DNA of 64,000 bases from Streptomyces griseofuscus (lineage in GTDB: Bacteria > Actinomycetota > Actinomycetes > Streptomycetales > Streptomycetaceae). Below are positions 1 to 33,683 of the stretch, in pieces (within the stretch, counting starts at the first letter, position 1; each line of letters starts with the position of its first letter). The position numbers and the translations under genes are program-made. The stretch spans positions 1,984,001 to 2,048,000 of the forward strand of contig NZ_CP051006.1 in assembly GCF_014673495.1 (NCBI RefSeq), read 5' to 3'. The notes under the pieces were generated by a model, which did not search any database, was not told the DNA's origin, and saw only the letters and a list, made by a program, of their open reading frames with translations.

Positions 1-817
1 CATGACCCTGCGGCAACTGCTGACCATGTCCTCCGGCCTCGCCGGCTCGAAGGAGCACGAACGGATGCAGCGGGTGTACCGGGCGGCGGGTGTTCTGCCG
101 TACGACTACACCGAACGCGGGTACGCCACCGACGAGACCGACTTCCTGCGGCGGATATTCGGCTGCGAACCGTCCGCCGCGCCCGGTACCCAGTGGGAGT
201 ACGGCCGCTCGGCGGACGTCGCCGGACTGCTGCTCCAGCACCACCTCGGCACACCGCTGGACGCCCTGTTCCGCACCTGTGTCTTCGAGCCGCTCGGGAT
301 GACGTCGAGCGGGTTCTTCCTGCCGCCGGGCCTGCCGCCGGACGTGGTGCTCCAGCCGCCGTTCGATCCGCCGACCGGTGAGGCGCTGGCCGATGTGCGG
401 CGCACGAGCGGATTCCGGTCCGCGGGCAGCGGGGGCCTGGCGAGCCTGCGGGACTATCTGGCCTTCCTCCAGGCAGTGTTCTTCCCCGCACCGGATTCCG
501 GCTTCCTCAGCGCGTCCGCGCGCGCGGAACTGCTGACGGACCAGATATCCGGGCTGCACGACACCGGGCCCGACTACATTCCCGGGCCCGGCTGGGGATT
601 CGGGCTGAATTTCAAGATCTCGCCCCGAAACTGCGGACCCGGCAACGCCCGCCGCGTCGCCTGGCTCGGCCGGGCGGGCACCAGTTTCCTCGTCGATCTG
701 GAGAAAGAGTTGATCCTGCTGTTCGCCGCGCCCTCCTACGGTCAGACCAGAATCCTCCAGGCGAAATTCACGGAACTCGCCGACCGGCGGCTGCCGCAGG
801 TGGCGAGCGCCCGATGA
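1..817 (+). CDS. Serine hydrolase of the beta-lactamase/EstB class, 5'-truncated by the window edge
   Basis: Partial protein of at least 271 residues. The first visible residues, MTLRQLLTMSSGL, match the conserved stretch that normally follows the catalytic SxxK of class C beta-lactamase-like esterases and DD-peptidases, so the start and the nucleophile lie outside the window. The second motif is degenerate (WEYGRS where Y-x-N is usual) and the C-terminal KTG/HxG box appears as LGRAGTS. Members hydrolyse esters or amides and are often cluster tailoring or resistance proteins. The next gene overlaps its stop by four bases, so it probably belongs to the same operon. Function beyond serine hydrolase is not decidable here. 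Confidence 0.75.
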   Translation, partial: MTLRQLLTMSSGLAGSKEHERMQRVYRAAGVLPYDYTERGYATDETDFLRRIFGCEPSAAPGTQWEYGRSADVAGLLLQHHLGTPLDALFRTCVFEPLGMTSSGFFLPPGLPPDVVLQPPFDPPTGEALADVRRTSGFRSAGSGGLASLRDYLAFLQAVFFPAPDSGFLSASARAELLTDQISGLHDTGPDYIPGPGWGFGLNFKISPRNCGPGNARRVAWLGRAGTSFLVDLEKELILLFAAPSYGQTRILQAKFTELADRRLPQVASAR

Positions 818-1431
818 CCACACCCCCCATCGTCGCGTTCATCGGTCTGGACGGCGCCGGAAAGAGCACCCAGATCGAGATGCTGAAGGCCGCCTACGAG
901 GCCCGCGGTCTGTCGGTGTTCGTGCATCCCAACCCGAGCCTCCAGGGGCTGTCGGCCCGGCTGGACGAGGTCGCCGTGGAGCACGGGTACGACGACCGGT
1001 TCGCGATGCTCGGACCCGACACGCACAAGATCATGACGGCGGCCGTGAAGTGGATGGCGATGTCCTCGCTGGGCACCGCGCCCGAGGGCACCGATCTGAT
1101 CATCGCGGACCGGTACGCGTACTGCCAGATCGCCGCCGCCGACGCGCTGGGCGCGAGCAACCGCTGGCTGATCGAGGGCCTGTTCCGGGGGCTGCCCGAG
1201 CCGACGCTCACCCTGTTCATGGACCTCGACCCGGCGCTGTCCGTGGCCCGGGTCAAGGCGCGGGACCCGCAGGAGTGGATCGACCACGGCTTCCTCACCC
1301 GGATGCGGGCCGCGTACGCCGCGCTCCCGCAGGCGTCGGCGTGGACGTGGATCGACGCGGACGCGACGTTCGAGGAGGTGCACCGGCGCGTGCTCGCGGC
1401 GGTCGAGGCGAAGCTGGGGGAGGCGCGATGA
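814..1431 (+). CDS. Thymidylate-kinase-like P-loop kinase
   Basis: A 205-residue protein with a clear Walker A motif near the start (GLDGAGKST) and a DRY-type motif (ADRYAYCQ) around residue 95, both typical of dTMP kinases. The overall length also fits that family. It sits in an operon of biosynthetic genes and is joined to both neighbours by four-base ATGA overlaps, so a housekeeping role in dTTP synthesis is unlikely. It more probably phosphorylates a pathway intermediate or a nucleotide conjugate. That is inference from context; the sequence itself only shows the fold and nucleotide-binding motifs. Confidence 0.7.
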   Translation: MTTPPIVAFIGLDGAGKSTQIEMLKAAYEARGLSVFVHPNPSLQGLSARLDEVAVEHGYDDRFAMLGPDTHKIMTAAVKWMAMSSLGTAPEGTDLIIADRYAYCQIAAADALGASNRWLIEGLFRGLPEPTLTLFMDLDPALSVARVKARDPQEWIDHGFLTRMRAAYAALPQASAWTWIDADATFEEVHRRVLAAVEAKLGEAR

Positions 1432-2303
1432 AGGTCGTCACCACGGCCCGGGAACTGGCCGCCGAGTGGGAGGCCGGGCGCCGCGCGGGCGCCGTCATCG
1501 GCTATGTGCCCACCATGGGAGCGCTGCACGAGGGACATCTGAGCCTGGTCGACCTGGCCCGCGCGGAGTGCGACCTGGTCATCTGTAGCATCTTCGTCAA
1601 CCCGCTCCAGTTCGGCCCGGACGAGGACTTCGAGTCGTATCCGCGGCCCGTGGAACGCGACCTCGAACTCCTGACGGCCCGGGGCACCGATGTCGCGTTC
1701 CTGCCGAGCTGGACGGAGATCTTCCCCGGCGGCGAGCGGGTGCTCGACGACTTCGGCACCCATGTCTCGGTGCCCCGGCTGAGCCACCAGCTGTGCGGAC
1801 GCTCGCGCGCGGGCCACTTCGACGGCATGGTCACCGAGAGCCTGCTCTTCCTGAACCTGGTACGGCCCGACCGTACGTACTGGGGCGAGAAGGACTTCCA
1901 GCAGCTGCGGATCATCGAGACGCTGGTCGCCGACATGCGGCTGCCGGTGACCGTGGTCCGGGGCGCCACCCGGCGCGAGCCCGACGGCCTCGCGATGTCC
2001 TCCCGCAACAAGAACCTCGACCCGGCGGCGCGCACCATAAGTCCCGCCCTGCGCAAGGGGCTTGAGGAGATGCGGGCCCAGGTGCTGGCCGGCGGACCGC
2101 TGCCCGCGGTGCTCGCGGCCGGCCGGGAGCGGCTCGGATCGCTGGGGTTCGAGGTGGAGTACCTGGTGGCCTGCGAGGAGGAGGCGCTGACCGAGGTGGC
2201 GGACGTGGACGGGCCGGTGCCGGTACGGCTGTTCGCCGCGGCGCGGCTCGGTGGCGTACGGCTGCTCGACAACATCCCGTTGAGCGGGGCGCACCATGGC
2301 TGA
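1428..2303 (+). CDS. panC: Pantoate-beta-alanine ligase (PanC) homologue
   Basis: The 291-residue protein has the full PanC pattern: the nucleotidylyltransferase HxGH-type motif in PTMGALHEGHLSLV (about residue 28), WGEKDFQQL near residue 150, and REPDGLAMSSRN near residue 183. PanC adenylates D-pantoate and joins it to beta-alanine. The start ATG overlaps the kinase stop (ATGA), and its own end overlaps the aminotransferase by eight bases. Such tight coupling inside a biosynthetic operon suggests a dedicated copy. It may make pantothenate for carrier-protein arms, or act as an amide ligase joining a hydroxy acid to an amino acid made by neighbouring enzymes. No catalytic residue is visibly lost. 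Confidence 0.85.
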   Translation: MKVVTTARELAAEWEAGRRAGAVIGYVPTMGALHEGHLSLVDLARAECDLVICSIFVNPLQFGPDEDFESYPRPVERDLELLTARGTDVAFLPSWTEIFPGGERVLDDFGTHVSVPRLSHQLCGRSRAGHFDGMVTESLLFLNLVRPDRTYWGEKDFQQLRIIETLVADMRLPVTVVRGATRREPDGLAMSSRNKNLDPAARTISPALRKGLEEMRAQVLAGGPLPAVLAAGRERLGSLGFEVEYLVACEEEALTEVADVDGPVPVRLFAAARLGGVRLLDNIPLSGAHHG

Positions 2304-3642
2304 GCTGGCGACGGAACCGATCGTCTACTCCTTCACCGACCACCGTGTGTACCGGGAGGAGTCGCCGCTGGTCATCGCCGAGGGCGAGGGCATCCGCATC
2401 CGGGACACGGCCGGCAAGGAGTACATCGACGCGCTGTCCGGGCTGTGGCACGCCAACCTCGGCTTCTCCGACACGGAGCTGATCGAGGCCGCCACTTCGG
2501 CGTACCGCCGACTGCCCGCGTTCCCCTGCGCGTTGGGCCGGGGCAGCGCCGAAGCCGAGGCACTCGCCCATGAGTTGCTCGCCGCCGCCGAGGGGCGGTT
2601 CAGCTCGGTGTACTTCGCCGCCTCGGGATCCGAGGCCGTCGAGTCGGTGCTCAAGTTCCTGTGGCTGGCGAGCAACGCGGACGGGGCACCGGACCGGAAG
2701 CTGGTCGTCACCCGGGACTCCGGCTTCCACGGCACCACCCTCGGCGCCGCCTCGCTGGCCGGGATACCGAACCAGCACGCGGGGTTCGATCTGCCGCTGC
2801 CGTTCACCGTGCGGGTGCCCCGGGCGCACTACTACCGCGATCACCTCGACGGCGAGTCGCGCGCGGAGTACGTCGACCGGATCGTGCGGACCACCCGCAG
2901 CAGGATCGAGGAGGCAGGCCCGGAGAACGTGGCCGCCATGGTCGCCGAACCGGTCATGGCGGCGGGCGGGGTCCTGGTGCCGCCCGAGGAGTACTGGCCG
3001 GCGATGGACCGGCTGCTCACCGACCTCGGGATCCCGCTGGTGGCGGACGAGGTGGTGTGCGGGTTCGGGCGGCTCGGGCCGCTCTTCGGGCACCGGCGCT
3101 TCGGGCTGCGGCCCGCGGCGGTCACGGTGGCCAAGGGCATCACCGCCGGGTACGCCCCGCTGGGCGCGGTCCTGCTGGGCCCTGACCTGACCCGTTCGGT
3201 GGCCGGGGCGGCGGAGTCGTACGGCGTCCTCGGGCACGGTTCGACCTTCGGCGGCCACCCGGTCGCGGCGGCCGTCGCCCGCGCCAATCTGCGGGCCCTC
3301 GCCGAGCGCGGCATCGAGGCACGCGTCGCCGCGCTGGAGGCGTCGCTGCGCGCCTGCCTGGAGGGGCTGCTGGAGCTCCCCGTGGTCGGGGAGGTGCGGT
3401 GCGTGGGCGGGCTCGCGGCGGTGGAGCTGATGGCCGACGGGGCGAGTCGCCGGCCCTTCGACCCGGAGCGCCGCATCGGCCGACGGGTCGCCCGCAAGGC
3501 CCGTGAACTGGGGCTCATCGTCCGTGACTTGGGTGATGTGCTGGCTCTGTGTCCGCCGCTGATCACCGATGCGGGCGATGTCGCCGAGATCGTCTCGCGG
3601 CTGCGCGCCGCCATCACGGCCACCCTGAAGGAGGAGACATGA
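2296..3642 (+). CDS. Class III PLP-dependent aminotransferase
   Basis: A 448-residue fold-type I enzyme. The cofactor-binding signature LVADEVVCGFGRLG lies near residue 250, and the Schiff-base lysine is in TVAKGITAGYAPLGAV at about residue 280. The family transfers amino groups from omega-amino acids or amines to keto acids or aldehydes, as in beta-alanine:pyruvate and adenosylmethionine transaminases. It starts inside the end of panC and its stop overlaps the next gene by ATGA. Next to a PanC homologue it could make or consume beta-alanine or a related amine such as an aminoalkylphosphonate. The substrate is not readable from sequence. Confidence 0.85.
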   Translation: MAELATEPIVYSFTDHRVYREESPLVIAEGEGIRIRDTAGKEYIDALSGLWHANLGFSDTELIEAATSAYRRLPAFPCALGRGSAEAEALAHELLAAAEGRFSSVYFAASGSEAVESVLKFLWLASNADGAPDRKLVVTRDSGFHGTTLGAASLAGIPNQHAGFDLPLPFTVRVPRAHYYRDHLDGESRAEYVDRIVRTTRSRIEEAGPENVAAMVAEPVMAAGGVLVPPEEYWPAMDRLLTDLGIPLVADEVVCGFGRLGPLFGHRRFGLRPAAVTVAKGITAGYAPLGAVLLGPDLTRSVAGAAESYGVLGHGSTFGGHPVAAAVARANLRALAERGIEARVAALEASLRACLEGLLELPVVGEVRCVGGLAAVELMADGASRRPFDPERRIGRRVARKARELGLIVRDLGDVLALCPPLITDAGDVAEIVSRLRAAITATLKEET

Positions 3643-4415
3643 CGCGACTCCCCGCCAAGGCCCATGCCTGGGACCTCGTCAGCGGCAGCTACTGGAACTC
3701 GGGCTACTACGGCGGCCCCGCCCCCGAACACGACGCCGTCTTCGCCGGGTTGATGCGGGCCGGTGCCCCGACCGCCGTGGTCGGCGCCAGTACCGTCTCC
3801 CTGTCCAGGGCCGCCCAGGACGCCGGGGCGGAGCTGCATGTGCTGGACTTCGCGCCCGGCATCCTGCGGGAGGCGGGCGAATGGCTCGGGCTGCCGGAGG
3901 AACGGCGGCACCTGGTGGATGTGACCGGGGAGCTGCCCGAGCGGCTGCGCGGCCGGTACCACCTGGTGGTCGCCGACCGACTGGTGAACCGGTTCAGCGC
4001 GGCCGACCTGCCCGGCGGACTGCGCGGGCTGCGGGATCTGGTGGCCGAGGGCGGGACGCTCGCCCTCACCGTCCGGTTCGGCTGGTACGACCGCGACCGG
4101 CAGATCCATGACGCGCTCACCCCGGCCGAGCAGCGGCTCTTCTGGCGGCCCGACGTCGGTGAGATCGACTACGCGGCACTGCCCGACCGGGACATCCCGC
4201 TGCCCACCTGGGGCGGCATCTCCGGCCAGGTCATGCGCGAGCACATCCGCGGCAGGGGGCGCGAGGCCCGCTTCCACCAGGACGAACTGCTCGCCGCGAT
4301 CGCCGACCTGGGCGGCCTCGACCGTACGGACCTCGTCGAGGCCGCCAACGGCACCGCGCTCGTCGTACTCAGGAAAGCCGCCCTCCGGAAAGGTGAGCAC
4401 CATGACCCTGCCTGA
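3639..4415 (+). CDS. Methyltransferase-like protein with a degenerate SAM motif
   Basis: The 258-residue protein resembles class I SAM-dependent methyltransferases: an aromatic N-terminus (WDLVSGSYWNSGYYGG), a Rossmann beta strand ending in VVGASTVSLSR at about residue 45, then LHVLDFAP, where the acidic residue of motif II normally binds the ribose. The glycine-rich motif I (usually DxGxGxG) is reduced to GAST, so either cofactor binding is unusual or the activity differs. It is coupled by ATGA to the aminotransferase, and its end overlaps the dioxygenase by 14 bases. A methyltransferase role is plausible but not assured. Confidence 0.6.
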   Translation: MTRLPAKAHAWDLVSGSYWNSGYYGGPAPEHDAVFAGLMRAGAPTAVVGASTVSLSRAAQDAGAELHVLDFAPGILREAGEWLGLPEERRHLVDVTGELPERLRGRYHLVVADRLVNRFSAADLPGGLRGLRDLVAEGGTLALTVRFGWYDRDRQIHDALTPAEQRLFWRPDVGEIDYAALPDRDIPLPTWGGISGQVMREHIRGRGREARFHQDELLAAIADLGGLDRTDLVEAANGTALVVLRKAALRKGEHHDPA

Positions 4416-6378: not shown

Positions 6379-7293
6379 TCAGTCCCCCAACTGCTCCAGC
6401 AACGCGAAGCCGCTCCGGTCCAGTTGATAGAACACCTGTCCGCCGAGCCGCCTGCGCCACACCACGCCCGTCTCGGTCAGGACTCCCAGGTGCTGGGAGA
6501 CCGTGCTCTTCGCGAGGCCCAGGGAGTGGGCGAGGGCGGTGGTGGTGCGGGGGGCCTGGAGGGCGCGGATGACCTTGGCGCGGCCGGGGCCGATCAGCAG
6601 GGCGAGGCGGTCGGTGGGGGGTTCGGTGGGGCGGTCCGGTGTGACGGAGTGCAGGAAGCCGGTCGTCCTGGCCTGGTAGGACATGGCGGTGACCTGGGCG
6701 TCGGAGGTGAAGACGCGGGTCGCGGCGGAGAACATGCTGGGCACCAGGACCAGTCGGGAGCGCCGCACCTCACGGGTGAGGTCCAGGTGGTACGGCGCGG
6801 TCAGGCGCGGCCGCTGCCACAGCACCCGGCCCTCCAGTTCCGCCAGCATCGCCTCGGGCCCGTTGACGGCCAGGGTCCGGCCGCGGAAGAGGACCTCCTC
6901 CTCCAGGGAGGCGCGCAGGGCGGGCCAGTAGGGGTGCAGCGCGTGGTTCCAGTAGTCCTCGATCAGCGCGGCGGTCCGCTCGTCCCCGGCGCGCTCGAAC
7001 CGTTCGCGCAGGAAGTCGAGTTCGTCCTGGAGGGAGGTGCGCGCGGGGTCGGGGACGTAGGCGTGCGCGTGGCGCAGGAACGGGGTGTCGCGGCGGTGGG
7101 CCAGCTGGACGACGGTGTCCATCAGCTTCGGCGGCACCGCGCGCCGGGCCCCCCGGACCCAGCCCGTGTACGGCGTGGGCACGGCCCCCCGGTAGCGCGC
7201 GAGGAGCGCGAGGCTGCCGAGGGTCTCCCACAGCGGGCTGAGGGCCAGCCGGATCGAGCGCAGGCTCTCCTCGTCGACGTCCAGGCGGATCAT
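6379..7293 (-). CDS. ArsR-type winged-helix regulator with DUF5937-like N-terminal region
   Basis: A 304-residue regulator. The last 70 residues form a winged helix-turn-helix of the ArsR/SmtB kind (TTALAHSLGLAKSTVSQHL then GGQVFYQLD). The long N-terminal region, without visible metal ligands, resembles the DUF5937 sensor part found in actinomycetes. I start at MIRLDVDEESLRS because the longer frame only adds a Ser/Thr-rich stretch that would overlap the upstream gene. It is 28 bases downstream of the PqqD-like gene and probably co-transcribed with it. It is a good candidate for local control, perhaps through the inverted repeat at 8483-8498. Confidence 0.75.
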   Translation of the reverse strand: MIRLDVDEESLRSIRLALSPLWETLGSLALLARYRGAVPTPYTGWVRGARRAVPPKLMDTVVQLAHRRDTPFLRHAHAYVPDPARTSLQDELDFLRERFERAGDERTAALIEDYWNHALHPYWPALRASLEEEVLFRGRTLAVNGPEAMLAELEGRVLWQRPRLTAPYHLDLTREVRRSRLVLVPSMFSAATRVFTSDAQVTAMSYQARTTGFLHSVTPDRPTEPPTDRLALLIGPGRAKVIRALQAPRTTTALAHSLGLAKSTVSQHLGVLTETGVVWRRRLGGQVFYQLDRSGFALLEQLGD

Positions 7294-7321
7294 GAGGAGG
7301 AGGGCGGCGGCGCGAGGGGCG

Positions 7322-7603
7322 TCACCACTGGAAGATCCCGCTGTCGTCGTGGTCCCCGAGGAACTCCAGGACATCGGCGAGGGCTTCGGCGCGGTCGATG
7401 CCGTACTCCTCGGCGACCCCGTCGGCGATGTCGGTGACCGTGCGGGCGCCGTCGGCCAGCCGGTAGATCAGCTCGGCGGGTCCGTCCAGCAGCATCGCCT
7501 GGTCGCGGTACCCGAGCAGCAGCCCGTCGGGGACGCGGCGGATGCGGATGCCGAGGGTCCTGCGCGGGACGTCGAGGGGGCCGGGGCCCGGCAGGCCGCT
7601 CAC
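7322..7603 (-). CDS. PqqD-like peptide-binding (RRE-type) protein
   Basis: A 93-residue protein with the PqqD pattern: a short beta hairpin (RRVPDGLLLGYRDQAMLLD) followed by helices (GPAELIYRLADGARTVTDIAD, then EALADVLEFLGDH). PqqD domains bind precursor peptides and present them to modifying enzymes in many RiPP pathways, including lasso peptides. The GTG start overlaps the upstream nucleotidyltransferase stop (GTGA), so the two are translationally coupled. A second PqqD-like segment is fused to the asparagine synthetase across the divergent promoter. Its likely partner is the 22-residue peptide at 8628; binding is inferred, not shown. Confidence 0.75.
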   Translation of the reverse strand: MSGLPGPGPLDVPRRTLGIRIRRVPDGLLLGYRDQAMLLDGPAELIYRLADGARTVTDIADGVAEEYGIDRAEALADVLEFLGDHDDSGIFQW

Positions 7604-8388
7604 GAGACCTCCACGCGCATGGCTATGTCCTGGCAGATCGTCAGCACCTGGTTGATCCAGGGCCGGGGGTCCTCGGGGTCGTAGTCCCGCATGGTCTCCA
7701 GGGCCCAGTAGTCCTCGAAGGAGAGGGCGTCGGGGCGGGCGGCCCGGAAGCGCTGGGGCCGCCACTTGGGCGCCTGGCTGCCGAACTGGCCGAGCCCTTC
7801 GAGCAGCGCGTCGACGCTGGAGCCGAGCGCGGCGCGCGCGGAGAGGGTGGCGCTCTCCAGGTTGCCGGACTTCATCTGGCCGAGCGCGTCCTCGACACAG
7901 TTGTCGGAGGCGCCGAGCGAGCGGGCGATCATGAAGGACCGGAAGGCGGACCCGGCCACCTGTGCGCGCCGGGCCTCGAACCACGGCTCGCCCGCGAGGA
8001 TCACACAGCTGTCCAGGCGGCCGAGGGCCAGCTCCTCCCGGGCGGCCAGCACCCGGGCGGGCGCGACGCCCCGGTTGTACTCGTCCCGGGAGACCTTGGC
8101 GAGCATCTGGTCGTAGTGGCCGTCCAGCCAGTACGTCACCTCCCAGCGCCGCTCCCCCAGATAGAACGACTGGCTGCGCACCCGGGGCGGGTTGAGCGGC
8201 ATGGTGATGCTCGACCCGTCCGCGAACTCCGGCTCCCGCTCGGTGACGACGTAGAAGTCGTAGTCGCTGCGCTCGTTGTGCCAGCCGTGTGCCACCGAGC
8301 CGACGAGACTGACCGCGAGGGTGTCCCCCGGGATCAGCCCGCGGTCCCGAAGGACCCGAAGCCACTGGCCGGATTCGTTCTCCTGCAC
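7600..8388 (-). CDS. Nucleotidyltransferase-domain protein
   Basis: A 262-residue protein. The minimal nucleotidyltransferase motif is clear near the start: LVGSVAHGWHNERSDYDFYV gives GS followed by DxD, the metal-binding acids. The rest is helical and is not recognised beyond this family. I use the GTG at 8388 (AGGGG upstream); an in-frame ATG at 8448 would add 20 residues but overlaps a good minus-strand -10 (TATGAT). Nucleotidyltransferases occur in some lasso-type and other RiPP clusters, where they may adenylate a peptide or small molecule. It is coupled to the PqqD-like gene, strengthening a peptide-modification role. Confidence 0.75.
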   Translation of the reverse strand: MQENESGQWLRVLRDRGLIPGDTLAVSLVGSVAHGWHNERSDYDFYVVTEREPEFADGSSITMPLNPPRVRSQSFYLGERRWEVTYWLDGHYDQMLAKVSRDEYNRGVAPARVLAAREELALGRLDSCVILAGEPWFEARRAQVAGSAFRSFMIARSLGASDNCVEDALGQMKSGNLESATLSARAALGSSVDALLEGLGQFGSQAPKWRPQRFRAARPDALSFEDYWALETMRDYDPEDPRPWINQVLTICQDIAMRVEVS

Positions 8389-8627
8389 CCGAACACCCCT
8401 CGTTTGCGACGCCGTTGCCAACCCCGAGACAGGGAGTGCGGTGATCATAGACCGGTGGACGGCACCCTGGCACGGTGCGGTGTTCGGTGGAAACCGAATC
8501 CGTAGGCCGCCCGGCCGTGCTCGGTTAGGGTGATCGCCAGCCGGGCTGAAGTGGCCGGAAACAGGCCGCAGCGTCCCGCTGAATTCTCCGGTGAACACAC
8601 CGAGTTGCTGGAGGGAGGTGGGTCAGA
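8389..8627. promoter_or_regulatory. Divergent promoter region between the nucleotidyltransferase and mini-peptide genes
   Basis: This 239-base gap separates the minus-strand regulator operon from the plus-strand peptide operon. It holds a near-consensus minus-strand -10, TATGAT (8449-8444), without a convincing -35. It also holds a perfect inverted repeat TTCGGT-GGAA-ACCGAA at 8483-8498, and TAGGGT at 8526-8531 as a possible plus-strand -10. The repeat is a candidate operator for the ArsR-type protein encoded next door. No other gene is seen here. Confidence 0.5.
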
Positions 8628-8696
8628 ATGCAGAAGTACAGCAAGCCGACGAAGAAGACCGTCAGCCAGGGCACCTCTTTGATGACTCTCGCCTGA
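8628..8696 (+). CDS. 22-residue ribosomal mini-peptide (candidate RiPP precursor or carrier peptide)
   Basis: A very short gene, ATG to TGA, preceded by the strongest Shine-Dalgarno in the area (GGAGGGAGG, nine bases before the ATG). Of 21 codons after the start, 19 end in G or C, as in real genes here. The peptide begins MQKYSKPTKK and ends GTSLMTLA. The Y-x-x-P near the start followed later by G and T loosely recalls lasso-peptide leaders, but nothing follows that could be a ring-forming core. It has five Lys and no Asp or Glu, so the C-terminal Ala is its only carboxylate. Neighbours are two PqqD-like domains, an asparagine synthetase and a nucleotidyltransferase. It could instead be an attenuator leader, but the codons give no sign of that. 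Confidence 0.65.
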   Translation: MQKYSKPTKKTVSQGTSLMTLA

Positions 8697-8724
8697 TCGA
8701 GCGAGCGCCCGAGACACGACAGCG

Positions 8725-8755
8725 GGCGGGGGCTTCGCACTCCGGAGCCCCCGCC
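8725..8755 (+). promoter_or_regulatory. Intercistronic hairpin between mini-peptide and asparagine synthetase genes
   Basis: A 13-base-pair stem (one G-T wobble) around a five-base loop, with GCGGGGGCTTCG pairing CGGAGCCCCCGC. No U-run follows, so it is more like a partial terminator or mRNA-stabilising element. Placed directly after a tiny peptide gene, it could keep peptide expression above enzyme expression, as in many RiPP operons. Confidence 0.6.
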
Positions 8756-8802
8756 TTCGCCCGGCTCACGCACGGCACCGGGCGGTGGCCGAGGAACAAG
8801 AC

Positions 8803-10965
8803 ATGTGTGGAATAGCAGGAATCGCCCGTCTGGGCAGCCGGACGCTCGGCGCCGGGACGGACGCCGTTCTCGACCGGCTGGCCGACATCCTCGACCACCG
8901 GGGTCCGGACGAGCGGGAGATCCTCCGCGACGACGCGGTCGGACTGGTCTTCACCCGCCTCGCGCTGGTCAACCCGGAGGACGGCAGCCAGCCCCTGGTC
9001 AGCGATGACGGCTCGCTCGTCCTGGTGGCCAACGGCGAGGTCTACAACCACCGGGAACTGGCCGCCGCGCTGCCCGGTGGGGCACGGATGCGGACCGGGT
9101 CGGACTGCGAGGTCCTGCTTCATCTCTACCGCCACCACGGGCTGGACTTCCTGCGCGACGTACGGGGCATGTTCGCCCTGATCCTGTGGGACCGGAACAG
9201 GAACCAACTCGTCCTGGCCCGTGACCGGTTCGGCATCAAGCCGCTCTACTACCACCGCGACGACGCGCGCATCGTGCTCTCCTCGGAGATCAAGGGACTG
9301 TTCGCCGACCCGGCGACCCCCCGCCGCTTCGACTGGGAACGGTCTCTCGCGACCCCCCTGCTGGCCGCCGCCGGCACCTTCAACGAGGCACCGCCGACCA
9401 CCTGGTTCGAGGGCGTCGAACTGGTCCCCGCGGCCACCGTGGTGCGCCTCGACCTCGCCGACGGCCGGACCACGGAGCACCGTTACTGGGAGCTGCCCGA
9501 GGACGCCGACGAGGACGCCGACGCGGCGGAGTTGATCGGGCGGTACGGCGAGATCCTGGAGCACTCCGTGCAGGAGTGCGTCACCGCCGACACCGAGCTG
9601 GGGCTGTTCCTCTCCGGTGGCATCGACTCCTCCGCCGTCCTCGCCCTGGCCGGTGACCGGCGCGCGGGCATGCACACGTTCACCGCGCTCACCGGGGGCA
9701 CCGCGGACAACGGGGACGCGGAGCACGCCGCCTGGATCGCGCGCGAACTGGGCGTGCCCAACCACCAGGTGGCGTTTCCGGCCGAGCTGACGCCGACGCC
9801 GGAGCAGTGGCTGCGGCTGCTGTGGCTCACCGAGACCCCGATGTGCGGTCCCGAGGTGTACTACAAGCACGAACTGCACCGCTTCGCGCGCGAGGCCCGG
9901 CCGGGACTGCGGGGCATGCTCCTCGGCGCGGCCAGCGACGAGTTCAACGGGGGCTACGCCCAGGACATGGGCGCCGAGGACTGGCCGTCGTTCCTGGACC
10001 TCCTCTCCCAGCTCGACCGCGGCACCCGCCTCGCGCGCCGCCCGGCCCTGCGGCACTGGTGGGCGCAGGAGCCCTGCTTCCTCGCCGCGAAGGCCCTCGA
10101 CGGTCTGGAGCCGGACCCGGACCGGATCTACCGCGCCTATCTCAGGTCCGAGTACTGGCAGATCCAGCAGTACAACGTCTGGCACGAGGACCGTACGGCG
10201 GCCGGCAGCGGGGTCGAGGCCCGGGTGCCGTTCCTGGACCACCGTCTGGTCGAGCTGTGCGCACGGATCCCGGAGCGGCTGCGCCCCGAACTGCTGTGGA
10301 ACAAGCGGATATTGCGGGAGGCGGTCGCCTCCCGGCTGCCGCGGCGGATCGCCGAGCGCCCCAAGGTCCCCTTCTTCTACGGAGAGGGCACGTACCACTC
10401 GTACCGGATGCTGGTCCGGCTGATGCGCGCGGACTCCGGCGCCCTCGTGGAACGGGCGCTCGCCGCCCCGGGGGCCGCGGACTTCATCGACGGGGACCGG
10501 GTGCGCGCCCATCTCGCCGAGATCGGCGAGGGCAGGACCGACGCGCCGTCCGTGGAGATGCTGATGCGCGTCCTGAACATGGGGCTGCTGGCGGAACTGG
10601 CCGTGAACGCGCCACGCCTGGAGGACACTTCGGCGGGCGCGGTGCTCCAGGAGATCACCGGCGGCGAGCCGGTGGCCGATACGGTGGCCGCCCGTCCCGA
10701 GCTGCCCGGCGACGCGGTTTTGGCGTTCGCGGAGAATGTGCTGCTGCTCACCGATCCCGCGGGTTCCGACTGGTACCTGATCAAGGACGGGGAGATCGAG
10801 TTCGTGCTCCAGGCGGGCTCGCCGACGCTCGCGGTGCTGCGGGCGGTCGACGGCAAGAGCGCGCTGGCCGAGCTGCTGGCTCCGGTGGGCGCGGAAGGGG
10901 ACGAGGAGGCGCGCGCCGACCTGGGCAATCTGCTGGACCTCGGCTTCCTGGCCTGGACCGGCTGA
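8803..10965 (+). CDS. Asparagine synthetase (glutamine-hydrolysing type) with a PqqD-like C-terminal extension
   Basis: A 720-residue protein. The N-terminal glutaminase domain keeps the catalytic Cys2 (MCGIAG) and RLALVNPEDGSQPL. The AMP-forming synthetase domain has the pyrophosphate loop LFLSGGIDSSAVLAL at about residue 270 and VEARVPFLDHRLVEL near 470. Beyond the usual end, roughly residues 630-720 (AENVLLLTDPAGSDWYLIKD, then ELLAPVG and LGNLLDLGFLAWTG) look like another PqqD-type peptide-binding unit. Lasso cyclases belong to this family but lack the Cys nucleophile; here it is kept, so ammonia transfer to an activated carboxylate is expected. A GAGGA ribosome site supports the ATG used. 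The stop overlaps the next start by one base. Confidence 0.85.
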   Translation: MCGIAGIARLGSRTLGAGTDAVLDRLADILDHRGPDEREILRDDAVGLVFTRLALVNPEDGSQPLVSDDGSLVLVANGEVYNHRELAAALPGGARMRTGSDCEVLLHLYRHHGLDFLRDVRGMFALILWDRNRNQLVLARDRFGIKPLYYHRDDARIVLSSEIKGLFADPATPRRFDWERSLATPLLAAAGTFNEAPPTTWFEGVELVPAATVVRLDLADGRTTEHRYWELPEDADEDADAAELIGRYGEILEHSVQECVTADTELGLFLSGGIDSSAVLALAGDRRAGMHTFTALTGGTADNGDAEHAAWIARELGVPNHQVAFPAELTPTPEQWLRLLWLTETPMCGPEVYYKHELHRFAREARPGLRGMLLGAASDEFNGGYAQDMGAEDWPSFLDLLSQLDRGTRLARRPALRHWWAQEPCFLAAKALDGLEPDPDRIYRAYLRSEYWQIQQYNVWHEDRTAAGSGVEARVPFLDHRLVELCARIPERLRPELLWNKRILREAVASRLPRRIAERPKVPFFYGEGTYHSYRMLVRLMRADSGALVERALAAPGAADFIDGDRVRAHLAEIGEGRTDAPSVEMLMRVLNMGLLAELAVNAPRLEDTSAGAVLQEITGGEPVADTVAARPELPGDAVLAFAENVLLLTDPAGSDWYLIKDGEIEFVLQAGSPTLAVLRAVDGKSALAELLAPVGAEGDEEARADLGNLLDLGFLAWTG

Positions 10966-11990
10966 TGTACCGGGAGCGGGCGACCGAACCGCTCCTCGCG
11001 GCGCGGACGGGGCCGGAGGCGGGGCTGGAGCCGACCACCGAGTCAGGCGAGCCCGGCGGCTACACCGGTGGCTTCGGCCGCTGGGACCGCCTCGCCGGTG
11101 TCCGCAACCGGCCCCAACGGCCGTTCACGGAACCGGGATCGCTCTACTTCCCGCCCGAGCTGCACCCGGTCGCCCTGCACCCCCTGGTCACGGCCGGTGG
11201 CCCGGAGCAGGTGGAGTGGCTGCTGCTGCGCCGGCTCCACGACTACCTCGACTTCACCACCCAGCTCGAAGCCCTCGCGGTCATCCCGGTGGTGACCGCG
11301 ATCAGCCGGGGCCGCTCGGGTCTGCGGCTGCCGGAGGCCATGCGGGCGGACGCGTTCAAGATCGTCACGGACGAGGCCTGGCATGCGCAGGTCTCGTACG
11401 ACTTCGCGCGGCAGGTGGCGCGGGCGACCGGGGTGCCCGCCGAGCGGCCGGACGGCGGGGGCCCGCCCGCGTTCACGGAGCGCCTCGACGCCATCCGGGA
11501 CCGGCTGCCGCACGAGCTGAGGGGAGTCGAGGCACTGCTCTTCGCGATCGTCAGCGAGACCCTGATCTCCGGGATCCTCGCGGAGATCCCCCGGGACGAG
11601 CGGCTGCCCGGGTCGCTGCGGGAGCACGTCCGCGACCATGCCGAGGACGAGGGGCGCCACCATGTCTACTTCCGCGCCGTGCTCCGCCATCTGTGGGCCG
11701 CACTGACACCGGCCGAGCGCGGGGCCGTCGGGCCGCAGGTCCCGGCGGCGATCCAGGCGTTCCTGGCGCCCGATCTCGCCCGAGCGGCCGAGGACCTGCG
11801 GGCGCTGGGACTGCCGGAGCGCAGCGTCGACCAGGTCCTCGCGGAATCCTGGCCCGCGGAAAAGATCGCGGCCGACATGGCGGGGGCCGCGCGTTCCCTC
11901 GTGCGCTATTTCGGCGAGGCGGGAGCACTGGACGATCCGGCCACCCGGGACTCCTTCGAGAGCGCCGGACTCCTCTGTTCCGACGGCTAG
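10965..11990 (+). CDS. AurF-type diiron N-oxygenase
   Basis: A 341-residue ferritin-fold protein. All seven AurF-type metal ligands appear present: Glu in TTQLEALAV, ExxH in DEAWHAQVSYDF, Glu in IVSETLISG, and H-x3-E-x2-H in HAEDEGRHHVYF. Family members oxidise aromatic or aliphatic amines to hydroxylamines, nitroso or nitro groups. It overlaps the asparagine synthetase stop (TGATG), so the two are made together; the amide or amine made by the synthetase, or an amine bound to the peptide, is a natural candidate substrate. The 141-base gap after it separates this operon from the phosphonate-type genes. Confidence 0.85.
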   Translation: MYRERATEPLLAARTGPEAGLEPTTESGEPGGYTGGFGRWDRLAGVRNRPQRPFTEPGSLYFPPELHPVALHPLVTAGGPEQVEWLLLRRLHDYLDFTTQLEALAVIPVVTAISRGRSGLRLPEAMRADAFKIVTDEAWHAQVSYDFARQVARATGVPAERPDGGGPPAFTERLDAIRDRLPHELRGVEALLFAIVSETLISGILAEIPRDERLPGSLREHVRDHAEDEGRHHVYFRAVLRHLWAALTPAERGAVGPQVPAAIQAFLAPDLARAAEDLRALGLPERSVDQVLAESWPAEKIAADMAGAARSLVRYFGEAGALDDPATRDSFESAGLLCSDG

Positions 11991-12030
11991 TTCACGGAAT
12001 TCCCCGACCACCGGCCCGCAGTTTTCGATC

Positions 12031-12036
12031 TTGACA
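12031..12036 (+). promoter_or_regulatory. Consensus -35 hexamer upstream of the HEPD/MPnS-like gene
   Basis: TTGACA matches the -35 consensus exactly, about 100 bases before the chosen GTG start. No equally good -10 is spaced 16-19 bases away, so the promoter is tentative. It argues against the upstream in-frame GTG at 12051, which would lie inside the promoter. Confidence 0.35.
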
Positions 12037-12131
12037 GATTACGTTCTGGCGTGATCACATGCTGGTCATTTGACGGCCCCTGTGCTGTCCAGAGCGCTCT
12101 TCGACGACCACAGAGGGACAGGGGGCACCTC

Positions 12132-13493
12132 GTGCGGCCAGAGGACGATTTCACCCGGCGTGCCGGAGCGCTGCTGCGCGCCGCCGCCAATGATCTCAAG
12201 CGGGACGACGAGAACGCCGAGCGTGAGCTCGGTCTGGAGAAGGGCTCGTTCGCGGAGTTCGCGGCCGGAACCCGGCCGGTGACCTGGGAGTTGATGCGGC
12301 GCGCGGCCGAGGTGTGGCCGCTGAACGAGCGGGATCTGCTGCCCGGCCACGACGACTGCCCGGCCGGTGTACGCATCACCCGGCACAAGGAGTCCGTGGC
12401 GAGCGGGCGGGTGCTCAGCCGGGGCGGGGAGCCGTACTACGAGTACCGGGACACCGCGATGTCCCGGATCGCCTCCTACCGCCCCGAGTGGATCCGGATG
12501 CTGCGGGTGGTCGAGGACGACGACCCGGACAACCCTCTTGTCCAGTGGAATCGCGGCCATCTTCTGTACCAGTTCACGTACTTCATCGGTCCGGTCAACT
12601 ACTACTACCGGTGGAACGGCGTCTCGCACTGCGTCCCCATGGACACCGGCGACTCCGTGTGGGGGCTGCCCTTCGCGCCGCACTCCTTCACCTCCCGGTC
12701 GAAGACCGAGCCCGCCTGCATCCTCGCCCTGACCTACGGCGGCTCCCTGCTCGGCGACGCCCAGCGCGAACTGGCGGTCCTGGGCAACGCCACGACCCGG
12801 GCCCTCGCGGTCCCGCTGGAGGGGGCGGCGCACCGGCCGGGGGCGATGATCCGGTCCTTCATGGACGCGGGCGCGGTCACGGTGGCCGAGCTCGCCGACC
12901 GTACGGGCCTCGCGCGGGAGCGCGCCGAGGAGCTGGCCGGGGGCGCCGTATCCCCCGAGCCCGAGGAACTCGACCTGCTGGCGGTCGCGTTGGGCGTGTC
13001 CGTACGCGATCTGCTGCCGCCGCGCACCGGGACGGCCGACGGGGTGTCCCTTCAGTTCGCCCGGGACGCCCGCAGCTGGGTGTGGCCCGACGAGGGCGCA
13101 CCGGCCTACCGGATGACCCGGCTCGCCGGCGACCCCCTGCATCCGCACACGTCCGCCCTCCAGGTCGACGTCCTCGCGGACGGCGCCGAGCGGTCGGCGC
13201 CGCTGACCACGTACCAGCACCAGTACCTGTACGTCCTCGGTGCCGAACCGGTCTCGCTGAGCTGGGAGTTCGGGGGGCGGCGCGTCGAGGAGACGCTCGC
13301 GCCGGGCGACTCGGCGTACGTGCGGCCGCAGGTGCCGGTCACGTTCGCGGCGGCCGAGGAGGGGCGGCAGGCCCAGATCCTGCTGCTGCGGATCTCCGGG
13401 TCGGTCACTCCGGAGGTGCGGTACGCGGTGGGCACCATGGCGGCGGGCGGCGTCGACCGGTACGTGGCCGAGGACCGGCTGTGGTACAGCTGA
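12132..13493 (+). CDS. HEPD/MPnS-like non-heme iron oxygenase (phosphonate-processing family)
   Basis: A 453-residue protein built as helical domain-cupin-helical domain-cupin, the architecture of 2-hydroxyethylphosphonate dioxygenase (HEPD) and methylphosphonate synthase (MPnS). An automatic reading may call it an XRE/cupin regulator because of the helical domains. HEPD phosphonate-binding features align by eye: SRGGEPYYEYRD, WNRGHLL, and IGPVNYYYRW. Likely iron ligands are His143, Gln147 and His184; the HEPD Glu position holds Gly (GDSVWGLPFAPH). A His-x3-Gln...His pattern is that of MPnS rather than HEPD. GTG 12132 follows an AGGGGG ribosome site. Substrate is probably 2-hydroxyethylphosphonate or an analogue. 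Confidence 0.75.
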   Translation: MRPEDDFTRRAGALLRAAANDLKRDDENAERELGLEKGSFAEFAAGTRPVTWELMRRAAEVWPLNERDLLPGHDDCPAGVRITRHKESVASGRVLSRGGEPYYEYRDTAMSRIASYRPEWIRMLRVVEDDDPDNPLVQWNRGHLLYQFTYFIGPVNYYYRWNGVSHCVPMDTGDSVWGLPFAPHSFTSRSKTEPACILALTYGGSLLGDAQRELAVLGNATTRALAVPLEGAAHRPGAMIRSFMDAGAVTVAELADRTGLARERAEELAGGAVSPEPEELDLLAVALGVSVRDLLPPRTGTADGVSLQFARDARSWVWPDEGAPAYRMTRLAGDPLHPHTSALQVDVLADGAERSAPLTTYQHQYLYVLGAEPVSLSWEFGGRRVEETLAPGDSAYVRPQVPVTFAAAEEGRQAQILLLRISGSVTPEVRYAVGTMAAGGVDRYVAEDRLWYS

Positions 13494-13542: not shown

Positions 13543-14760
13543 ATGAGCGAGTCGCTGCTCGCCCTCCAGGAGCGCCCGGCGCTCCCGGAGACGCTGTCCG
13601 CGGATCTCCAGCCGCTGCCCGGGCATCCGGCCGCCTATCTGGGCGAGGGCGCGGCGGCGCGGCTGGGCTCGGTGATCGAGGCGCTCGGCGGCCGCCGGGT
13701 GCTGTTCGTGCACGGCCCCACGTCCTACCGGCGCTCCGGTGTCGGGGAGTTGGTGGAGAGATGGGCGGGCCGGTACCGGGTCGAGCACTTCGACGGGGTG
13801 CGGCCCAACCCGCGGATCGCGCAGGTCCGGGAGGGGGTGGCGCTGGCCCGGCGGTTCGGCCCGGACGTGGTGGTGGGGGTCGGCGGCGGCAGCAGCCTGG
13901 ACGTGGCCAAGGCGGTCGCGGTGCTCGGCGCGCAACCGGCCGACCCGCTGGACTGTCTGCGCGACCCCGGCCTGGTGACCCGGCCGCGGTCCGCCGCGCT
14001 CGTACTGCTGCCCACCACCGCGGGATCCGGCAGTGAGATGACCCGGTTCGCCACCGTGTACGTCGAGGGCCGCAAGCACTCCCTGGATCTCGCCCAGGCC
14101 CGCGCGGACCTCGTCCTCGTGGATCCCCGGCTCACCTCCTCGCTGCCCCGCCGGGACTCCGTCGCCAGCGGCCTGGACGCGCTGGCGCAGGCCGTCGAGT
14201 CGTACTGGTCGGTCTCGGCCGACGCCGGCTCCCGGGCGCTGGCCCGCGCCGCCCTGGAACGGCTGCTCCCGCCGCTCGCGCACGCCGCCAGGACGGGCTC
14301 CTTCACCGATCCGGGCGTCCGTACCGGTCTGGCCCACGGCGCCTCGCTGGCCGGTGCCGCGATCGACCTCACGCGGACGACGGCGGCCCACGCGCTGTCG
14401 TACGAGCTGACCGCGCGTCTCGGTCTGGCCCATGGCACCGCGGTCGCGCTGCACCTGGACTGGCTGATGGCCCGGCATGCCGCGCTGACCGAGGCCGAGT
14501 GCCGGCACCCGGAGGGCGCGCCGGGGGTGCGGCGGCGGGTGGAGACCGTCCAGCGGCTCGCCGAGGAGGCCACCGGCGGGAGTGTGGAGCTGCTGGTACG
14601 GCGGCTGCTGACCCTCGGTGGGCAGCCGGCCGGGCTGCGGGAGCTGGCCCTTCCCGCGCGGAGCTGGCGGCAGCCGCTGACCGCCGCGCTCGCCTCGAAC
14701 CGGGCAGGGAACAACCCGTGCGTCCTCACCGAGGACGACGTCCTTCGCTTCCTCGTCTGA
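13543..14760 (+). CDS. Iron-dependent alcohol dehydrogenase, phosphonoacetaldehyde-reductase type
   Basis: A 405-residue group III alcohol dehydrogenase. The dinucleotide motif VVVGVGGGSSLDVAKAVAVL lies near residue 110, followed by LPTTAGSGSEMTRFATVY. The stretch ESYWSVSADAGSRALARAAL is typical of phosphonoacetaldehyde reductases (PhpC/FomC/DhpG), which make 2-hydroxyethylphosphonate. Metal ligands are partly changed: the usual D-x3-H is DALAQ, so one His is Gln, while the later histidines (AHALSY and LAHGTAVALHL) remain. It sits between the HEPD/MPnS-like gene and a PhpE-like dehydrogenase, a trio matching early phosphonate steps. Confidence 0.75.
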   Translation: MSESLLALQERPALPETLSADLQPLPGHPAAYLGEGAAARLGSVIEALGGRRVLFVHGPTSYRRSGVGELVERWAGRYRVEHFDGVRPNPRIAQVREGVALARRFGPDVVVGVGGGSSLDVAKAVAVLGAQPADPLDCLRDPGLVTRPRSAALVLLPTTAGSGSEMTRFATVYVEGRKHSLDLAQARADLVLVDPRLTSSLPRRDSVASGLDALAQAVESYWSVSADAGSRALARAALERLLPPLAHAARTGSFTDPGVRTGLAHGASLAGAAIDLTRTTAAHALSYELTARLGLAHGTAVALHLDWLMARHAALTEAECRHPEGAPGVRRRVETVQRLAEEATGGSVELLVRRLLTLGGQPAGLRELALPARSWRQPLTAALASNRAGNNPCVLTEDDVLRFLV

Positions 14761-14794
14761 ATCCGATCGTTCCCGCCGTCAAGGAGGAACCCCT

Positions 14795-15832
14795 GTGTCC
14801 CGACCCCGCGTGCTCTACACCGACCCGCCGTGGCTGGTCGAGGACGGCCGCCCCGATCCCGCGCTGGCCACCGTGGAGCGCGACGTGCTCGGCCCCGACG
14901 TGGAGTTGGTCTTCGGACCGCACGACGGCACGAAGTACCTGACCACCGACGCGCAGATGCTGGAGCGGGCGGCCGGGATCGATGTGCTCGTGGTCTACCG
15001 CACCCAGGTGACCGAGGAGTTGCTCGACGCGGCCGGCAAGGGCCTGAAGGTGGTGGTCCGCCAGGGCGTCGGCGTCGACAACCTCAACGCCGCCCTGCTC
15101 ACGGACCGCGGGCTGCCCGCCTACAACGTGCCCGACTACTGCGTGGACGAGGTCTCCACCCACACGGCCGCGCTGGCCCTCGCCCTGGAACGGCAGGTGG
15201 TGCCGCAGCACCGGACGCTCGTGGGCGGCACCTTCGACATCTACGCGGGCGGCACCCCGCACCGCACCAACCGCCGCACCCTGGGCATCGTGGGCTTCGG
15301 CCGGATCGGCCGGGCGGTCGCGCGCCGCCTCGGCGCCTTCTACGGCCGGGTCCTGGTGTACGACCCGTACGTGGGCCGCGATCTCGCCGAGGGGTACGGC
15401 GCGCTCGCCGTCGACACCCTGGAGGAGCTGCTGGCCCAGTCCGACCTGGTCACCCTGCACTGCCCGCTGACCCCGGAGACCGAGTCGCTGATCGACGAGG
15501 CGGCGCTGCGCCACATGAGGCCGGGCGCCTATCTGGTCAACGCGGCCCGGGGCAGACTGGTGGATCCCGAGGGCCTGCACCGGGCGCTGGACGGAGGCTG
15601 GATCGCGGGGGCCGGACTGGATGTCTTCTCCCCCGAGAACCCGCACCAGGACCCCCGCTGGCACCCGGTCCTCGCGCATCCCTCGGTGGTCGTGACGAGC
15701 CACCGGGCGTTCCTCTCCGAGGAGGCCGAGGCCAGCAGCCGGCGCCGGGTCGCCGAACTGGTCCGCGCGGCGCTGGAGGGGCGTACGCACGGGCTGGTCG
15801 GAAGGGTGACCCCGGCGGATTCCGGTCGCTGA
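14795..15832 (+). CDS. D-3-phosphoglycerate-dehydrogenase-like 2-hydroxyacid dehydrogenase (PhpE-like context)
   Basis: A 345-residue enzyme of the CtBP/PGDH type. Visible features are VVRQGVGVDNLNAALL, the NAD motif LGIVGFGRIGRAVARRLGAF near residue 165, NAARGRLVDPEGL, and a C-terminal active-site histidine in VVTSHRAFLSEEAEAS. An AAGGAGGA ribosome site precedes the GTG. In phosphinothricin-type clusters a homologue (PhpE) next to HEPD oxidises hydroxymethylphosphonate. The gene order here suggests a similar oxidation or reduction of a phosphonate alcohol, but homology alone does not fix the substrate. The operon ends at the perfect hairpin just downstream. Confidence 0.75.
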   Translation: MSRPRVLYTDPPWLVEDGRPDPALATVERDVLGPDVELVFGPHDGTKYLTTDAQMLERAAGIDVLVVYRTQVTEELLDAAGKGLKVVVRQGVGVDNLNAALLTDRGLPAYNVPDYCVDEVSTHTAALALALERQVVPQHRTLVGGTFDIYAGGTPHRTNRRTLGIVGFGRIGRAVARRLGAFYGRVLVYDPYVGRDLAEGYGALAVDTLEELLAQSDLVTLHCPLTPETESLIDEAALRHMRPGAYLVNAARGRLVDPEGLHRALDGGWIAGAGLDVFSPENPHQDPRWHPVLAHPSVVVTSHRAFLSEEAEASSRRRVAELVRAALEGRTHGLVGRVTPADSGR

Positions 15833-28511: not shown

Positions 28512-28572
28512 CGCCCCGTCTCTCGACCGGGCCGGCTCCGCCCCCACCTCATCGCTCTGGAAGGGAATGCGC

Positions 28573-33642: not shown

Positions 33643-33683
33643 CCCCACGGCCCCCCTTCCCCAGCGAGAAAGGCACCGGAGCA

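Follow-up and report, generated by a model that had tools for sequence, protein, structure and literature searches.

A conserved 22-residue peptide gene beside asparagine-synthetase-like and AurF-family enzymes in Streptomyces: a candidate pathway to C-terminally modified short peptides

What might a gene of only 22 codons be for, when it stands between a nucleotidyltransferase gene and the genes for an asparagine-synthetase-like enzyme and a diiron oxygenase? This question is raised by a 64,000-nucleotide stretch of the Streptomyces griseofuscus genome (contig NZ_CP051006.1), hereafter the window, which covers positions 1,984,001 to 2,048,000 of the 9.1-Mb genome. A first, sequence-only reading had described five genes at 7322-11990 of the window as a module of the kind that makes ribosomally synthesized and post-translationally modified peptides (RiPPs), and all five were found at those places when the coordinates were re-checked. 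The features of the module are as follows:

7322-7603, minus strand: stand-alone PqqD-like RiPP recognition element (RRE; Pfam PF05402, E 1.1e-10), hereafter PqqD
7600-8388, minus strand: nucleotidyltransferase (NTase) with the motif GS..GW.N..SD.D and a HEPN-like helical C-terminal half, from motif and fold model
8610-8619, plus strand: Shine-Dalgarno sequence GGAGGGAGGT of the peptide gene, from sequence
8628-8696, plus strand: 22-residue candidate precursor gene MQKYSKPTKKTVSQGTSLMTLA, with a leader-like part (residues 1-18, containing YxKP) and a variable part (residues 19-22, here MTLA)
8722-8760, plus strand: predicted attenuator-like hairpin between the peptide and AsnB genes (RNAfold of the gap, z -3.7)
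8803-10965, plus strand: asparagine-synthetase-like enzyme (AsnB) with glutaminase Cys2 and a PqqD-like C-terminal domain at about 10684-10962
10965-11990, plus strand: AurF-family diiron oxygenase (AurF; PF11583, E 2.5e-21)

The PqqD and NTase genes overlap by 4 bp. The true start of AsnB is most likely the ATG at 8803 (MCGIAGIARL...), which follows a GAGG and lies six codons inside the ORF (open reading frame) listed from 8785. The answer that we favor, and to which we give about an even chance of being right, is an RiPP-type pathway that has not been described before, in which an 18-residue leader would present a 4-residue core whose C-terminus becomes a hydroxamic acid, with the NTase acting next.

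The reality of the peptide gene was judged by its recurrence. Of 392 genomes sampled from the genus, 28 have an NTase homologue (E <= 1e-10), which in 25 reaches E 2.4e-49 or better, and searches (E <= 1e-15) across the class and the order matched 3 of 394 genomes (own genome included, one match distant) and 14 of 293 genomes (three matches distant, several genomes already seen), so that the set appears patchy in its distribution. Thirty stretches of 20 kb around NTase matches were analyzed (L032-L061, two of which overlap); 23 carry an AsnB of the module family, and all 23 of those carry the peptide. These 23, together with three loci found through AsnB (L071, L072 and L074), three of the ten stretches from the class- and order-wide searches (L168, L170 and L172), three linear Streptomyces plasmids (L181-L183) and the window itself, make up 33 AsnB-family loci, from which L070 and L073 were left out as duplicates of L049 and L035. 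The peptide is present in 32 of the 33, AurF, NTase and PqqD in 31 each, and all five genes in 30. AsnB was the criterion of selection, and the NTase count is partly built in because most of the loci were found through the NTase; the counts for AurF, PqqD and the peptide are not. Two control sets were used, one of 20 further AsnB loci from the own genome and its relatives and one of 75 AsnB loci from other bacteria, the latter drawn from 80 kept among the matches listed, whose other five (L070-L074) belong to the module family. AurF, NTase, PqqD and a YxKP peptide were each found in 0 of the 20 near and 0 of the 75 broad control loci. Neither was a YxKP peptide found in the 14 NTase-match stretches that lack a family AsnB and stand outside the 33 (L039, L047, L055-L058, L060, L169, L171 and L173-L177); a 22-residue YxxP ORF beside PqqD in L058 was the sole candidate when the DNA up to 2.5 kb from the NTase was scanned in all of them but L176. 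Three additional stretches (L178-L180) hold no module genes.

These data bear on the simplest alternative, namely that the small ORF arose by chance and its neighbors form an ordinary amide or hydroxamate cassette. The ORF has 22 codons only, and none of the three annotated plasmids lists it in its gene table (tables that are stated to be incomplete). With the loosest motif tried, [YFW]xxP, 24 of the 95 control loci hold a short chance ORF, none of them with YxKP, and six such ORFs stand in the 33 loci. Since this loose motif also matches by chance, it is the strict YxKP motif, picked after the family had been seen, that carries the contrast with the controls. An intermediate scan ([YFW].[KRAQ]P, 18-29 residues) required a ribosome site, so that a Shine-Dalgarno-like sequence was demanded in the other loci, and neither looser scan revealed anything in the 33 loci besides the YxKP peptides and chance-like ORFs. 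Against chance stand the recurrence of the YxKP peptide in 32 of 33 loci versus 0 of 95, the gapless alignment of 33 distinct peptides over 22 residues, and the conserved short gap to AsnB. A chance ORF was therefore rejected, and we regard it as wholly improbable. Conservation beside homologous synthetases was the test that the sequence-only reading had set beforehand, and the gene that it took to be real came through it.

The collection, from which alternative in-frame GTG starts and the six chance [YFW]xxP ORFs were left out, holds 34 peptides with 31 distinct DNA sequences and 30 distinct peptide sequences, or 33 distinct peptides once the three plasmid peptides are added. Every member was read as 22 residues from an ATG; L054 has an extra in-frame ATG two codons upstream. 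Y4, K6 and P7 are invariant in the final collection, partly by construction because the final scan demanded YxKP; K10 is found in 29 of 31 peptides and V or I at position 12 in 31 of 31. The peptide and AsnB genes lie on the same strand in every locus compared, and 79-173 bp separate AsnB from the nearest copy except in L041 (about 4.9 kb); in L168 the peptide stands about 6 kb away from AsnB. L038 has three copies of the peptide gene and L041 two. The gap between peptide and AsnB genes folds strongly in RNAfold, with z <= -1.5 in 29 and <= -3 in 22 of 30 gaps (60 shuffles each; the three L038 gaps are nested), and its hairpin can be likened to the attenuators that stand after many precursor genes. 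A scan of the window against Rfam gave 0 matches.

How the peptide is used was then read from the way in which it varies. Sixteen close pairs were compared, drawn from loci whose AsnB proteins are at least 75% identical and including the two copies in L041. Residues 2-18 are changed at 45 of 272 sites, alongside 43 synonymous codon changes, and residues 19-22 at 35 of 64 sites, alongside 4 synonymous ones; the Fisher P of 1.7e-9 for this contrast is a guide only, because pairs share members. The two copies in L041 differ at three of their four tail residues. Across 24 loci the distance between leaders correlates with that between AsnB proteins (Mantel r 0.57, P 0.0002), and the distance between tails correlates with it less (r 0.40, P 0.0002). 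Such rapid change of the tail, also between two copies at one locus, is the pattern of a leader plus a variable core in the product; from these comparisons residues 1-18 look like a leader and residues 19-22 like a core that enters the product. A precursor gene conserved beside modifying enzymes and a division into conserved leader and variable core are traits expected of an RiPP, and both are seen here. The last residue is constrained in another way: among the 33 peptides it is A in 11, V in 10, R in 6, T in 4 and K in 2, that is, 5 kinds as compared with a mean of 10.5 in shuffled tails (P below 1/20,000; P 0.0014 with one member per clade, 19 in all). A free tail sequence with a constrained end fits the C-terminus as the site of reaction.

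The sequence-only reading had instead suggested a constant scaffold for a small molecule, a proposal that the rapid diversification of residues 19-22 leaves less supported. In such a scheme the peptide would be a reusable carrier, a small molecule being built on its C-terminus and cut off, with the peptide sequence staying outside the product as in the PEARL/pearlin systems. The uniform length of 22 residues, the constrained C-terminal residue, a protein of the major facilitator superfamily (MFS) near 19 of the 33 loci, and neighboring genes that differ greatly between loci (phosphonate, cyclitol and non-ribosomal peptide synthetase, NRPS, genes) would all suit a carrier. The tail changes, including those between the two L041 copies, do not, and a Pfam scan of 31 window proteins, which take in every gene called between 2 and 33,642, turned up no PEARL-like LanB protein. 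As far as the accessible parts of the literature on 3-thiaglutamate and ammosamide go, those pathways share with the module a short ribosomal peptide modified at its C-terminus; the module differs in its diversifying tail and in the PEARL-like ligase, of which no counterpart was found among the scanned window proteins. We consider a scaffold of this kind, with its C-terminus as the attachment point, unlikely though conceivable.

To return to the leader-plus-core reading, how would the leader be recognized? Two PqqD-like domains had been proposed, and both are supported, the stand-alone one by its Pfam match and the second, at about residues 628-720 of AsnB, by profile comparison. The latter segment has no PqqD match in Pfam; in hhalign it matches the PqqD family with a probability of 95.1% (P 3e-8, 45 columns), as compared with 0.2-0.6% for three other AsnB segments, and in the AsnB model it consists of strands followed by helices (pLDDT, the predicted local distance difference test, 79-89). 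W/Y/LxxP-type motifs are described as RRE recognition sequences in the accessible text of PMC12710340.

A YxxP leader motif, a PqqD protein and an AsnB homologue are also what lasso pathways have, and a lasso-like or other macrolactam peptide with AsnB as cyclase therefore had to be weighed. NTase genes, too, occur in some lasso clusters. The sequence-only reading had argued against a lasso, and the analysis agrees: AsnB scores 179.8 bits with the NCBIfam lasso cyclase model NF033535, whose cut-off is 525; the glutaminase Cys2 is kept in 24 of 24 sequences; no leader protease (peptidase B2) was found among the scanned window proteins, nor is one named in the three incomplete plasmid gene tables; and only four residues follow the leader-like part, which leaves no core position 7-9 for a ring Asp or Glu, the tails holding 2 Asp and 0 Glu among 132 residues. 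A lasso peptide was rejected on the cyclase cut-off, the retained Cys2 and the short tails, and we hold any macrolactam of this kind to be very improbable.

Which reaction, then, could AsnB and AurF perform on a free C-terminus? In AsnB, besides Cys2, the residues of the pyrophosphate loop SGG.DS are invariant, as are E380 and Y385, whose spacing, and spacing only, equals that of the Glu363-Tyr368 dyad reported for PesC in the accessible text of PMC13060819. The best PDB match of the AsnB model in Foldseek is the hydroxyamidotransferase TsnB9 (7ylz, E 1.5e-23). The diiron N-oxygenase proposed by the sequence-only reading appears intact: E102, E137, H140, E198, H225, E229 and H232 of AurF, which we take to align with the AurF metal ligands, are invariant in 22 of 22 sequences. 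The module shares with the cassettes for trichostatin (TsnB6/7/9) and benzohydroxamic acid (SaAmOx-AS, SaAmOx and SaHAT) an AurF-family oxygenase beside an AsnB-like transferase with a glutaminase Cys. According to the accessible text of two reports (PMC11160463, PMC13418202), an AurF homologue and a hydroxyamidotransferase make the hydroxamates of both compounds; in trichostatin the AurF homologue oxidizes glutamine to glutamyl hydroxamate and TsnB9 transfers hydroxylamine from it to a carboxylate. It is this logic that makes a C-terminal hydroxamic acid (or an amide) the best reading of the pair. The module differs from the TsnB cassette in the PqqD-like domain at the end of its AsnB and in the added peptide, PqqD and NTase genes, and no TsnB6-like accessory was seen in its compact form.

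The NTase has no Pfam match at 0.001 (PF01909 at E 0.0012, below its cut-off) and none in PHROGs, where no named function came close to AsnB either. Its model (pLDDT 89) is closest in Foldseek to ANT(4'') and kanamycin nucleotidyltransferase (KNTase; E 2e-6 to 6e-6), and VIA-align gives Z 11.1-12.1 with a root mean square deviation (rmsd) of 4.5-4.7 over 220-223 aligned residues. The module NTase shares with these aminoglycoside enzymes the fold and differs in sequence (10-13% identity) and in its pairing with PqqD and a peptide gene. The helical half aligns with HEPN proteins (VIA-align, Z up to 12.8), a value that says little when the part compared is a helical bundle. Each of the motif residues S31, D42 and D44 is retained by at least 90% of 31 sequences. 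Genomes with three or more NTase paralogues also occur (L060, L047 and L061), some of the paralogues lacking an acidic residue of GS..SD.D.

A distant locus on plasmid pCgly1 of Corynebacterium glyciniphilum (L184, 9910-15468) encodes a 23-residue YRKP peptide ending in AWPG, an NTase and a PqqD, with no AsnB or AurF in 24.7 kb; this combination can be read as an NTase that acts on the peptide. The locus further holds a thymidylate-kinase-like protein, an extra trpS, two GNAT proteins and an annotated MFS protein that the MFS profile used did not match. The trpS gene prompted a search for self-resistance by an extra aminoacyl-tRNA synthetase, as expected of a microcin-C-like peptide nucleotide, for which the module would at least have an NTase. 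Self-resistance of this kind was not supported for the AsnB family: six synthetases out of about 20, those for Ala, Val, Thr, Arg, Lys and Trp, were searched for in 54 records of about 20 kb per locus, and the sole match was the L184 trpS, itself the Trp query.

From the gene set and its conservation, the division of the peptide, the RRE domain, the catalytic residues and the predicted folds we infer the following reactions, their order, and the release and export of the product. Both RREs, the one that ends AsnB and the stand-alone PqqD, would bind the leader motif YxKPxAKKV, and the PqqD would partner the NTase. AsnB would adenylate the free C-terminal carboxylate and transfer nitrogen onto it, and AurF would either provide the donor in N-hydroxylated form, as the glutamyl hydroxamate known from trichostatin, or oxidize the amide afterwards; both orders, donor first or amide and then N-oxidation, would turn the C-terminus into the same hydroxamic acid. 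The NTase-PqqD pair might then nucleotidylate the modified C-terminus, as an activation step or as the final group. A protease encoded outside the set would free the short peptide, and the MFS protein present in many loci would export it.

Several observations weigh against this scheme. Some of the stretches analyzed hold an NTase homologue and no family AsnB, and L184 combines peptide, NTase and PqqD with no AsnB or AurF in its 24.7 kb, so that hydroxamate formation need not come before the NTase step. L072 pairs AurF with AsnB and lacks NTase, PqqD and a YxKP peptide. No candidate for the accessory subunit TsnB6 appears, by annotation, among the neighbors of the compact set on plasmid L182. 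ABC-transporter families recur as well, two of them in seven loci each, so that the MFS protein does not settle the exporter. AurF could act on some other amine. The AsnB model is moderate overall (pLDDT 67, from a 6-sequence alignment), structural comparison hardly separates TsnB9 from E. coli AsnB (VIA-align over AsnB residues 2-611: Z 24.1, rmsd 4.4, 515 aligned, and Z 23.0, rmsd 4.4, 457 aligned, respectively), and phmmer places E. coli AsnB slightly above TsnB9.

The last points lend themselves to a different chemistry, in which amidation comes first: AsnB would use glutamine-derived ammonia to form a C-terminal carboxamide, or a nitrile as PesC does, AurF would oxidize another nitrogen, for instance a Lys or Arg side chain or the released amide, and the product would be an amidated or nitrile-bearing short peptide. 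Besides the structural tie, AsnB scores best in NCBIfam (E 8.7e-96) with the model of the ordinary glutamine-hydrolysing asparagine synthase, and there are precedents in TsrC, ScdTA and PesC, AsnB-like enzymes by which RiPP C-termini are amidated or nitrilated according to the accessible text of PMC13060819. With these systems the module shares an AsnB-like enzyme expected to adenylate a C-terminal carboxylate; it differs from them in its AurF and NTase partners, in the 22-residue precursor with a four-residue tail and in the RRE at the end of AsnB. Amidation alone gives no reason for the retention of AurF in 31 of 33 loci, as some tails (MTLA, STVV) have no side-chain amine. We regard this alternative as possible though doubtful.

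Should the hydroxamate reading be right, it is tempting to speculate further. The fast-evolving tetrapeptide might be converted on its leader into a C-terminal hydroxamic acid and O-nucleotidylated by the aminoglycoside-type NTase, giving either a non-hydrolysable acyl-nucleotide that would serve as a ribosomal Trojan-horse inhibitor, or an N-O species activated for a Lossen rearrangement or for N-N bond formation, in a cassette that is placed in phosphonate, cyclitol and other clusters and forms a new RiPP class. In this full form we consider the idea unlikely.

As the sequence-only reading had supposed, no described pathway with this gene set turned up in the literature searched. Each of its elements is known by itself, namely RREs, C-terminal chemistry by AsnB-like enzymes and hydroxamates made with AurF, and what was absent is their combination on a 22-residue precursor together with an NTase of the ANT fold; this absence is weak, as the search reached few subscription papers and no bioRxiv preprints. 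If the chemistry is confirmed, the module probably deserves an RiPP class of its own. AurF/hydroxyamidotransferase chemistry, described in the accessible literature for small acids so far, would then extend to ribosomal peptides; there would be an encoded route to short peptide hydroxamates, the hydroxamate being a known metalloprotease-inhibiting group; and the last four codons would programme the product, so that genome sequences would reveal variants open to direct testing. The family is one of very small precursors absent from three plasmid gene tables, and the set is also found on plasmids. On plasmid L182, of S. scopuliridis, it is compact (peptide, AsnB, AurF, MFS, PqqD, NTase and a helix-turn-helix, HTH, gene) and flanked by lanM and transposases, and therefore may be self-sufficient; on L183 it adjoins streptomycin-like cyclitol genes.

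In the window the module has further neighbors, of which the phosphonate-type genes, the ArsR-like regulator and the thymidylate-kinase-like gene were absent from the sequence-only reading:

814-1431, plus strand: thymidylate-kinase-like protein, a recurrent neighbor (PF02223, E 2.9e-20; in 14 of 33 AsnB-family loci)
6379-7374, minus strand: ArsR-type HTH regulator, a recurrent neighbor (Pfam; in 11 of 33 AsnB-family loci)
12051-13493, plus strand: hydroxyethylphosphonate dioxygenase (HEPD) homologue, context outside the core module (PDB 6b9r, E 1.8e-174)
13543-15832, plus strand: iron alcohol dehydrogenase and 2-hydroxyacid dehydrogenase, context (homology), which we take to be PhpC/PhpE-like

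With the HEPD homologue, a phosphonate-type iron alcohol dehydrogenase and a 2-hydroxyacid dehydrogenase downstream, the module lies inside a phosphonate-type cluster here. The block of HEPD, alcohol dehydrogenase and 2-hydroxyacid dehydrogenase recurs in 2 of the 30 NTase-centred stretches (L032 and L033). Between HEPD and alcohol dehydrogenase, L033 (about 2264-4300, minus strand) encodes two further proteins: a phosphoenolpyruvate (PEP) mutase that carries EDKLFPKINS, and a protein read as a thiamine pyrophosphate enzyme resembling phosphonopyruvate decarboxylase. Neither gene is found at that place in the window; about 550 kb from it, the own genome encodes a member of the PEP mutase superfamily that carries EDNVFPKRNS. 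For a K-26-like phosphonopeptide, the accessible part of the K-26 literature gave no gene cluster for comparison. Beside the cluster stand a PanB-like gene (L031, 16127-17017, read from sequence) and a pantoate-beta-alanine-ligase-like gene (PF02569; window 1428-2303), which adjoin aldehyde and alcohol dehydrogenase-like genes, and NRPS genes with an ABC transporter lie at 28567-40546 of the window, possibly as a separate cluster. Elsewhere, two proteins without Pfam matches (381 and 227 residues) co-occur in all of ten loci (L034, L042-L045, L049-L051, L054 and L059), seven of which also have an NDK-like protein and seven a HAD hydrolase. In L072, from Agreia bicolorata, the AurF of the AurF-AsnB pair (8834-12184) is preceded by a short ORF with a strong ribosome site.

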